Assembly (NCBI GenBank): GCA_037042915.1
Contig: CM073198.1
Location: 1,736,001 to 1,800,000, forward strand
Origin: Auricularia sp. M13
Taxonomy: Eukaryota > Basidiomycota > Agaricomycetes > Auriculariales > Auriculariaceae
Reading direction: 5' to 3'
DNA length: 64,000 nucleotides
Each line of letters starts with the position of its first letter. Within the stretch, counting starts at the first letter, position 1. Made by a program: the position numbers and the translations under genes. Positions 266 through 2,311 of this stretch are shown here, in pieces. A model generated the notes under the pieces. That model was not told where the DNA came from. It did no database searches and saw only the letters and a list, made by a program, of their open reading frames with translations.

Positions 266-2311
266 CTACTTGCCCAGAAAGATGACAGAAAGGATGCGCA
301 GATACACGACCAAGAGAAAGTCGAAGACAGCCCGCAAGCCCGATACCTCGACGACGCGGAAGAAGAGCGCGAGCGGCTTATTGGCCCTATGCTTACGGTC
401 CGCGCTACGTATTTCAAATGGAGATTTGGCGCCGCAATAGTCTGCTGCAGCACGCATGCCGGAGGTGAAGCCGTCCTCGTGGAACCCGTAGCGGGTCCAA
501 GCCCCGGCGAACGAGATGCCTCGTTTATTTTGGATGGAGTCGAGCATCGACTGTGCTTTGGTTGCCTGGCAGATCGGTCAGTAACGCAGAGCGAGATCAA
601 ATGAGAGCATGAGCGGCCAAACTCACAGCACCGTCAAGCACGGGATGATCGTAACTCCACCGGCCCAGAGTTTTATCGGGGTGTGGTTCGAACGGCGGGT
701 TAAGCGTGACGAGAACAGGGCCATGCCTTGCCTCGTCGATGTGCTGCAGCGCGTTCATGCCATCTGGTGTTTACAATCAGCTGCGCGTTGTAACATCACT
801 CGATCCGTGTTTCTTACAGGTTCTAAAAACGATCGTCAGCACAAGTCGAGCCACGCACAAAATAAAACTCACAATGCCACCTGATTGACGTTCGCTTTCA
901 CACCGCCATCGTCCGTTTTCTCGGACGCAGTAAGATAGTTCCAACAGGCCCAGGCCATGCGGCTCCGAGGCATAAGCTGATGAAAAGGACCCGCGATCAC
1001 TGAGATGGACGCCCGGTCTGCATGCTGCAACGTACCGTGGTGTCACTGTGGAGGACGGCCTCGTTCTTGTTCCAGCTGATCAGACCGAGGATCTCACGTT
1101 CAAGCTCCGTGGCGCCCTTGCCGTTGTTGAGGATCCGCAGCGATGTGTCGGAGTGGCACGCAAGGATGACATGGTCATACACTTGTTCCTCCCCACTGGC
1201 CGTCTTCAAGATCACCGACCCCGGCTTGGATACCGTGTCGAGCGATTCAATGGGCGTGCTAAGGTGTAGGGACTGAGGCGGAAGGCGCCCAAGAATCTGC
1301 TTGACGTATTTGTGGCTGTCAAGTTAATCGTGAGAACCATCCCACGTATGATGGGATTGCCGAATACCTTCCACCTGAAATCGTGAGCCAGGGCGGCTTC
1401 CCAATGAGCTGGAGAAGGTGATGGTTTGCCATGAACTGGATCTGCACAAAGATGAAATTTGATTAGGGTCGCGTCGATCCCTATTTCATCAAGACAAGAG
1501 CCATACCAACGTGCGCGTCGGGAAACCGAGAGAGCATTTCTCCGGGGGCGTTGACCAGACTGCGCTGGTAACCGGCTGAAGCGAAATGAGCGCGGGAATT
1601 GCGAAGCGCGGCAAGCCTCAGCAACGCACCAGGAGGTAGTCGTCGCGGAATGCGGCCGAGTAACCATGTTTATCAAGATAGTCGCCAATGCTGAGGTCGC
1701 CGTCCGCGCTGCCCGGCTCAAGGACTTCGAGCACGCAGGCGTTGAAGCGCAGGATGTCCCAGATCATGCGCCACATGTCCGGGCGGAGCAGGTTGCGCGG
1801 CTGGCAGAACACTGTGGCAGGGTTGGGCGTTCCAGCCCACTCAAACGCGCCCCTGTCGCGCGAAACGGAGAAAGTCATCTGGGTATCGACCGTCTCGACG
1901 CCCTTCAGCTTGAGGAAGCGCAGGAAGTTCGGGTACGTGGCAGGGTTGCACACGATCTACATAGCCCAGGCGGCGCCCATCAGCACCTCTCCTAGCTGTG
2001 AGACGTCGCAGCCCAACGCACAAAACCACTGAGGGATGGTCAGCCGCGCATTGGAAATGGATGTGCGATCCTCACGTGTCTACAGGAACGCGCGCCGTGT
2101 GCCCGGACGCTTTGGGCGGGACGAACTCGACGGTGTTGGCATGTCCACCGGGCCTGTCATCAGCCTCGTAGAGGTGGACCTCGCAGTCGCTGTGCTCGTT
2201 AAGGAGCTGATGCGCGACATCAGGGAGATGCTAAGCCATTGGAGGGTGACTCACCCAGGTCGCGGCGAGACCAGCGCACCCACTGCCAACGACGGCGACG
2301 CGCTTCACCAT
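266..2311 (-). CDS. COG2907-type FAD/NAD-binding amine-oxidase-like protein, multi-exon
   Basis: The start MVKRVAVVGSGCAGLAATW is a Rossmann dinucleotide motif, followed by LYEADDRPGGHANTVEF, the FAD-ribose region. Later blocks match the predicted NAD/FAD-binding proteins often encoded beside cyclopropane fatty-acid synthase in bacteria: VDTGFIVCNPATYPNF, FSVSRDRGAFEWAG, AVWSTPPEKC, DHVILACHSDTSLRIL, NKNEAVLHSDTTLMP and WACWNYLTASEKT. The C-terminus (plus about 270-370) has a hydrophobic stretch, LRAVFDFLLVVYLRI, that could be a membrane anchor. The substrate is unknown; a flavin oxidoreductase role is inferred from the family. At least seven introns are needed. Two exons are extremely short (7 nt at 2022-2028, 5 nt at 818-822), and both are required to keep conserved motifs in frame. 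No internal break was seen once these are spliced in. It is tail-to-head with TSR1, about 310 bp away on the same strand. Confidence 0.85.
818..822 (-). other. 5-nt microexon of the COG2907-type gene
   Basis: The minus strand has ...GTG GCA TT, a GT-AG intron ending tttttag, the five bases AACCT, a second intron gtaaga...ccag, then ATGGCATGAAC. Splicing gives VALTYGMNALQHI, matching the family motif LTYxMNxLQHI. Skipping the five bases shifts the frame. Confidence 0.75.
2022..2028 (-). other. 7-nt microexon of the COG2907-type gene
   Basis: The minus strand reads AG, then TGGTTTT, then GTGCGT. With flanking introns of about 47 and 65 nt removed, the codons GTA GAC AC/T GGT TTT/ATC GTG TGC AAC give VDTGFIVCN, a family hallmark. 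Reading through either intron loses the motif or the frame. Confidence 0.8.

Follow-up and report, generated by a model that had tools for sequence, protein, structure and literature searches.

Microexons have been described in fungi as well as in plants. In Fusarium CYP621A, an exon of a single nucleotide is supported by RNA reads (PMC12940212), and the predicted genes of the white-rot fungus Phlebia radiata are noted for very short exons, the smallest being 2 nt (PMC6540522). The P450 genes of Phanerochaete chrysosporium include a 6-bp exon and frequent introns of 45–55 bp (PMC1184071), and an 8-nt exon inside a conserved motif is cited for the same species in PMC12940212. Codon-sized microexons are mentioned for Tuber (PMC4986451), and a regulated microexon of 20 nt is described for Trichoderma (PMC11121469). 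Plant microexons of 1–15 nt include 5 nt among their sizes, may occur twice in one gene, and are often missed by annotation (PMC8831610).

Here, we analyzed two microexons, of 7 and 5 nt, in one gene of Auricularia sp. M13. The gene lies at the beginning of the window, that is, the 64,000-nt stretch comprising positions 1,736,001 to 1,800,000 of contig CM073198.1 (assembly GCA_037042915.1). Like the present exons, the exon of Fusarium CYP621A was deduced from the reading frame, a motif, a doubled intron length and an intron-free relative serving as yardstick. It differs, however, in being 1 nt long and confirmed by RNA, and the proposal made for it is that a cryptic exon rescued the frame, not that an intron was gained (PMC12940212). 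The Phlebia exons are comparably short, but the text concerned is a general remark on gene models and contains no analysis of microexon origin (PMC6540522). The Phanerochaete microexons belong to P450 genes and are discussed as candidates for alternative splicing (PMC1184071), and the plant microexons, which come from a different kingdom of organisms, are supported by RNA-seq and RT-PCR (PMC8831610).

Fungal exons of 5–7 nt and smaller are already in print, and the present pair adds a further case. A literature search, in which the gene name was not among the terms, retrieved no paper reporting exactly these exons. A preceding interpretation of the same DNA, hereafter the sequence-only reading, had placed 5 and 7 nt at the lower limit for exon definition; the 1-nt exon of Fusarium (PMC12940212) and the 2-nt exons of Phlebia (PMC6540522) do not agree with such a limit. 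The gene illustrates how microexons escape notice in fungal genes and how, even without RNA, they can be recognized with high confidence by means of frame, paralogs and family motifs. What remains most interesting about the pair is its origin, which was probably the gain of an intron immediately next to an older one.

Gene structure

The minus strand of the window carries, from position 2311 to 266, an intact gene for an FAD oxidoreductase. With both tiny exons included, its 11 exons encode 496 residues free of stop codons (Table 1). All ten introns are of the GT-AG type and measure 47–65 nt. Exon 3 lies between CAG and GTGCGT, and exon 9 between TAG and GTAAGA. Both exons are internal and shorter than the 15 nt set as the upper limit for a microexon, and both have AG before and GT after them. 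Moreover, their inclusion is required for the frame and for conserved residues: neither 7 nor 5 is a multiple of three, so that the frame shifts if either exon is omitted. With both included, the protein contains VDTGFIVCNP and VALTYGMNALQHI. The sequence-only reading had proposed a 7-nt and a 5-nt exon at the same coordinates, with the same peptides and the same AG and GT neighbors; it had further claimed that their inclusion restores the two motifs and that their omission breaks the frame. All of this was borne out. At positions 2623–2841 of the minus strand lies the end of a neighboring gene, which encodes a Tsr1/BMS1 C-terminal domain (PF04950).

Table 1. Exons of the FAD oxidoreductase gene and the introns flanking its microexons (window coordinates)
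Feature	Coordinates	Strand	Length	Description
Exon 1	2255..2311	-	57 nt	Start codon; GxGxxG stretch, which we take to be the FAD-binding motif
Exon 2	2076..2206	-	131 nt	Ends with ..GTAGACAC, phase 2
Intron 2	2029..2075	-	47 nt	GT-AG; coincides in position and phase with intron 2 in either paralog
Exon 3	2022..2028	-	7 nt	Microexon TGGTTTT; finishes T63, codes for G64 and F65
Intron 3	1957..2021	-	65 nt	GT-AG; missing in both paralogs
Exon 4	1630..1956	-	327 nt	Starts with IVCNPATYPN
Exon 5	1507..1575	-	69 nt	
Exon 6	1368..1441	-	74 nt	
Exon 7	1036..1315	-	280 nt	
Exon 8	873..976	-	104 nt	Ends with ..GTGGCATT, phase 2
Intron 8	823..872	-	50 nt	GT-AG; coincides in position and phase with intron 5 in either paralog
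Exon 9	818..822	-	5 nt	Microexon AACCT; finishes L350, codes for T351, starts Y352
Intron 9	764..817	-	54 nt	GT-AG; missing in both paralogs
Exon 10	627..763	-	137 nt	Finishes Y352, continues with GMNALQHI
Exon 11	266..565	-	300 nt	Stop codon

Protein family and conservation of the microexon residues

The encoded protein scored 84.6 bits against Pfam family PF01593 (Amino_oxidase; curated cut-off 19.8) and 49.5 bits against NAD_binding_8 (cut-off 21.9), thus passing both thresholds. The cut-off for hydroxysqualene dehydroxylase HpnE (TIGR03467) was not reached (43.2 vs 283.05 bits). We presume that the protein belongs to COG2907. A sequence-profile comparison identified the amine oxidase LkcE (PDB 6f32, 6f7l, 6f7v; best E 6e-34) as its closest solved relative. 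The alignment with LkcE consists of two stretches, profile positions 2–47 and 151–450, which leave the TGF region outside and comprise the second microexon site.

For residue comparison we aligned 33 relatives, that is, 31 bacterial proteins and two paralogs from the same genome. The bacterial proteins came from 31 of the 33 loci L031–L063 (L033 yielded none, and L031 and L032 represent a single gene). Of the residues encoded by the 7-nt exon, T63 and G64 are each conserved in 32 of 33 relatives and F65 in all 33. The residues of the 5-nt exon are equally constrained: all 33 relatives have V or L at position 350, T or S at position 351 and Y or F at position 352. Two neighboring positions deviate from the family. 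At the position of G353, which adjoins the 5-nt exon (window 759–761, minus strand), 31 of 33 relatives carry W, and at that of C68, close to the 7-nt exon (window 1948–1950, minus strand), 32 of 33 carry Y or F. When each bacterial relative was scored against the three fungal proteins, the protein with the microexons, and not a paralog, ranked top for 29 of the 31.

Scanning of genome contigs yielded 27 pattern-matching stretches, one of which encodes a relative, a bacterial protein from a Rhodobiaceae MAG. Among 101 genomes from the order of this bacterium, 94 gave a match at E 0.001 or better. The match was long and strong in 60 of the 101 (E 1.1e-75 or better), and the others were weak and mostly N-terminal. 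None of 50 pattern-matching stretches from viral contigs encodes a relative, and no fungal orthologs of the gene were obtained from the collections searched. At two of the bacterial loci, L031 and L036, the relative adjoins DUF1365. L031 also carries a gene for a sigma-70-type factor, and L036 the start of CMAS (cyclopropane synthetase) and a gene for a ChrR-type cupin. These neighbors hint at a role of the family in lipid modification.

Constraints on the splicing pattern

To determine how far the sequence itself dictates the two exons, all candidate splicing patterns (parses) at each site were enumerated, with introns of up to 140 nt and at most two introns per parse. A narrow search admitted only sites between the flanking exons, GT-AG borders and introns of 40–140 nt. 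It gave 20 parses at the 7-nt site, six of them in frame, and 27 at the 5-nt site, 11 of them in frame; at either site, a single in-frame parse was also free of stop codons, namely the one with the microexon. Full retention of the sequence around the microexons gave no in-frame, stop-free parse in this search. In an extended search, splice sites could lie as far as 45 nt inside either flanking exon, GC donors were also accepted, and introns could measure 35–140 nt. Under these conditions, 36 of 384 parses at the 7-nt site (six with GT-AG only) and 92 of 967 at the 5-nt site (36 with GT-AG only) were in frame and stop-free. The family motif, however, was restored by just one of the 384 and one of the 967, and both times this was the microexon parse. 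A single intron across the site would measure 119 nt (7-nt site) or 109 nt (5-nt site) as compared to 46–66 nt for the remaining 18 introns of this gene and its two paralogs.

The frequency of equivalent exons by chance was estimated from 50000 dinucleotide shuffles. We counted AG/GT-flanked exons of the right size that spell TGF or [LVIF][TS][YF] and leave approximately 40 nt or more per intron. Such exons occurred in 12 shuffles for the 7-nt site and in 238 (about 0.5%) for the 5-nt site. In a cruder test based on alignment scores, the 5-nt exon did not stand out: scores as high as the real one were obtained in 1034 of 2000 shuffles, and in 629 of 2000 the aligner picked an internal exon no longer than 12 nt. 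For the 7-nt site, the best alignment of the query fragment missed the site, and no usable value was obtained. When a single one of the four inner splice sites was disabled, the spliced-alignment score of the full gene fell by only 8–20. Since the raw alignment score does not support the 5-nt exon, the case for this exon is built on the reading frame, the exact residues encoded, the splice signals and comparative data. A spliced aligner that had not been told of the microexons returned both exons when given the protein of either paralog alone. We conclude from the sequence that exons 3 and 9 are very probably both real coding exons.

Tiny exons elsewhere in the genome

Seven further loci were examined by spliced alignment. 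They represent a small, hand-picked sample, with reference proteins used as queries. Internal exons of 7 nt or less were found in four of the seven. The GAPDH gene (L078, contig C7, about 706.3–707.7 kb) has a 5-nt internal exon, ATTCG, within NGFGRIG, and actin and two actin-like genes (L064, L065 and L066 on contig C1) have a 6-nt internal exon within GFAGD. Skipping of the latter would keep the frame but remove conserved residues. The alignments of the actin-like genes are incomplete gene models: one has a gap of 30 residues, and the other breaks off at residue 360. The count does not include the last coding pieces, 8 nt long, of two actin loci. At three tubulin loci no exon of 7 nt or less was found; exons of 12 or 16 nt were present. 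Among the in-frame, stop-free parses, those bearing the motif numbered one of eight for actin, one of seven and two of five for the actin-like genes, and one of seven for GAPDH.

As far as these alignments indicate, tiny exons are frequent in this sample, housekeeping genes included, and the microexons of the FAD oxidoreductase gene are ordinary for this kind of genome. The sequence-only reading had suggested that this lineage splices microexons efficiently. Recurrent use is evident from the 5-nt exon of GAPDH and the 6-nt exon of actin and the actin-like genes; efficiency would follow only indirectly from this recurrence. For annotation, the result serves as a warning: if even GAPDH and actin hold exons of 5–6 nt here, gene callers may skip such exons.

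In two regions of contig C5, at about 2.68–2.71 Mb and 3.18–3.22 Mb, EF1A-like and actin-related matches occur twice, at a distance of approximately 504 kb and with scores that are equal or almost so; a duplicated block, or one assembled twice, would look like this.

Alternative explanations

Each site might instead hold a single, longer intron whose splice site is shifted, the encoded loop being shorter or altered and the arrangements AG-TGGTTTT-GT and AG-AACCT-GT coincidental. Indeed, two single-intron GT-AG parses per site are in frame and stop-free once sites inside the flanking exons are allowed. They require introns of 127–140 nt, however, well beyond the 46–66 nt of the 18 others, and they remove residues that are conserved in 32–33 of 33 relatives, which makes this explanation very improbable. 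Even less credit is due to the notion that the gene is decaying and the microexons merely appear to rescue its frame. The changes of W353 to G and of Y/F68 to C, both beside the microexons, would suit a decaying gene, but 496 residues are open across 11 exons with GT-AG introns, and the protein outscores the paralogs for 29 of 31 bacterial relatives.

A third possibility accepts the exons as real, and in this it overlaps with the explanation preferred here, but takes them to be regulated, with skipping or retention shifting the frame and switching the protein off. Skipping of 7 or 5 nt, neither being a multiple of three, would indeed break the frame, full retention leaves no in-frame, stop-free parse, and a switch-like fungal microexon is in print, the 20-nt exon of Trichoderma Xlr2 (PMC11121469). 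Against regulation stand the similar exons in actin and GAPDH of the same genome, which argue for routine inclusion. We consider regulation unlikely and constitutive use of exons 3 and 9 probable.

Splicing signals and proposed mechanism

The introns flanking the microexons measure 47, 65, 50 and 54 nt; in this gene and its two paralogs taken together, the remaining 18 introns average 55.0 nt. All four flanking introns contain a match to YTNAY (CTGAC or CTGAT) 11–23 nt before their end; in 17 of the 18 others, such a match lies 8–45 nt before the end. None of the four has a donor or acceptor score outside the span seen in the 18 others, whose donor scores run from -1.1 to 10.7. With donor scores of 2.9 and 1.8, introns 2 and 9 rank below 16 of the 18.

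The short lengths and the separate branch-site match in each flanking intron fit the earlier suggestion of intron definition. According to this model, each short intron would be recognized as a unit of its own. The two introns beside a microexon would presumably be removed one after the other, because a stretch of 5–7 nt is too short to accommodate two complexes simultaneously. As soon as the first intron is removed, the microexon would become the edge of a long exon, and its size would thus stop mattering. For basidiomycetes, intron definition has been predicted from retained-intron patterns (PMC2397502). For plant microexons, it has been argued that the two flanking introns cannot assemble at once and therefore compete (PMC8831610).

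Paralogs and origin of the microexons

The genome (52.1 Mb, 14 contigs) contains two paralogs of the gene, one on contig C1 and one on contig C2. Their proteins are 43% and 47% identical to that of the microexon gene and 60% identical to each other. Each paralog has six introns, at positions identical between the two. Five of these six positions match introns 2, 4, 7, 8 and 10 of the microexon gene in alignment column and phase, and its introns 1, 3, 5, 6 and 9 have no counterpart in either paralog. At the 7-nt site, both paralogs have a phase-2 intron after the AC of a threonine codon and then read T[G/A]FVVFN without interruption. Likewise, at the 5-nt site, both have a phase-2 intron at the same place, followed by [L/V]TFWMN, again unbroken. 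Intron 3 starts 7 nt and intron 9 starts 5 nt downstream of the intron shared with the paralogs. Thus, the upstream intron of each pair is common to the paralogs and the downstream one is peculiar to the microexon gene, so that the microexon consists of the bases between a shared and an extra intron.

This arrangement of one shared and one extra intron offers a simple, testable route to the origin of a microexon: a new intron may have been gained 7 nt (exon 3) and 5 nt (exon 9) downstream of an older one. We moderately favor such intron gain, given that the two paralogs resemble each other more than the microexon gene and so amount, in effect, to a single comparison within one genome. Gain is also the simpler assumption, because loss of introns 3 and 9 from the paralogs by conversion with a reverse transcript, with the nearby shared intron left in place, would require the conversion to end inside a gap of 7 or 5 nt, and this twice. 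A broader proposal, which we put forward only tentatively and regard as somewhat doubtful, is that this lineage makes microexons by intron gain near, and downstream of, an existing intron, with sites beside introns being favored or especially tolerated, as the repeated occurrence within this gene would suggest, and the resulting pair being removed sequentially.

Tandem duplication was considered as a source of the second intron. The similarity of introns 2 and 3 was matched by 918 of 1000 shuffles and that of introns 8 and 9 by 675 of 1000. The introns of each pair are therefore dissimilar in sequence, and a recent tandem duplication is not seen.

Contigs C1 and C2 also carry two Amino_oxidase matches of equal length, score and E-value (C1:5671766-5672464 and C2:2546192-2546890), which perhaps represent a recent duplicate.
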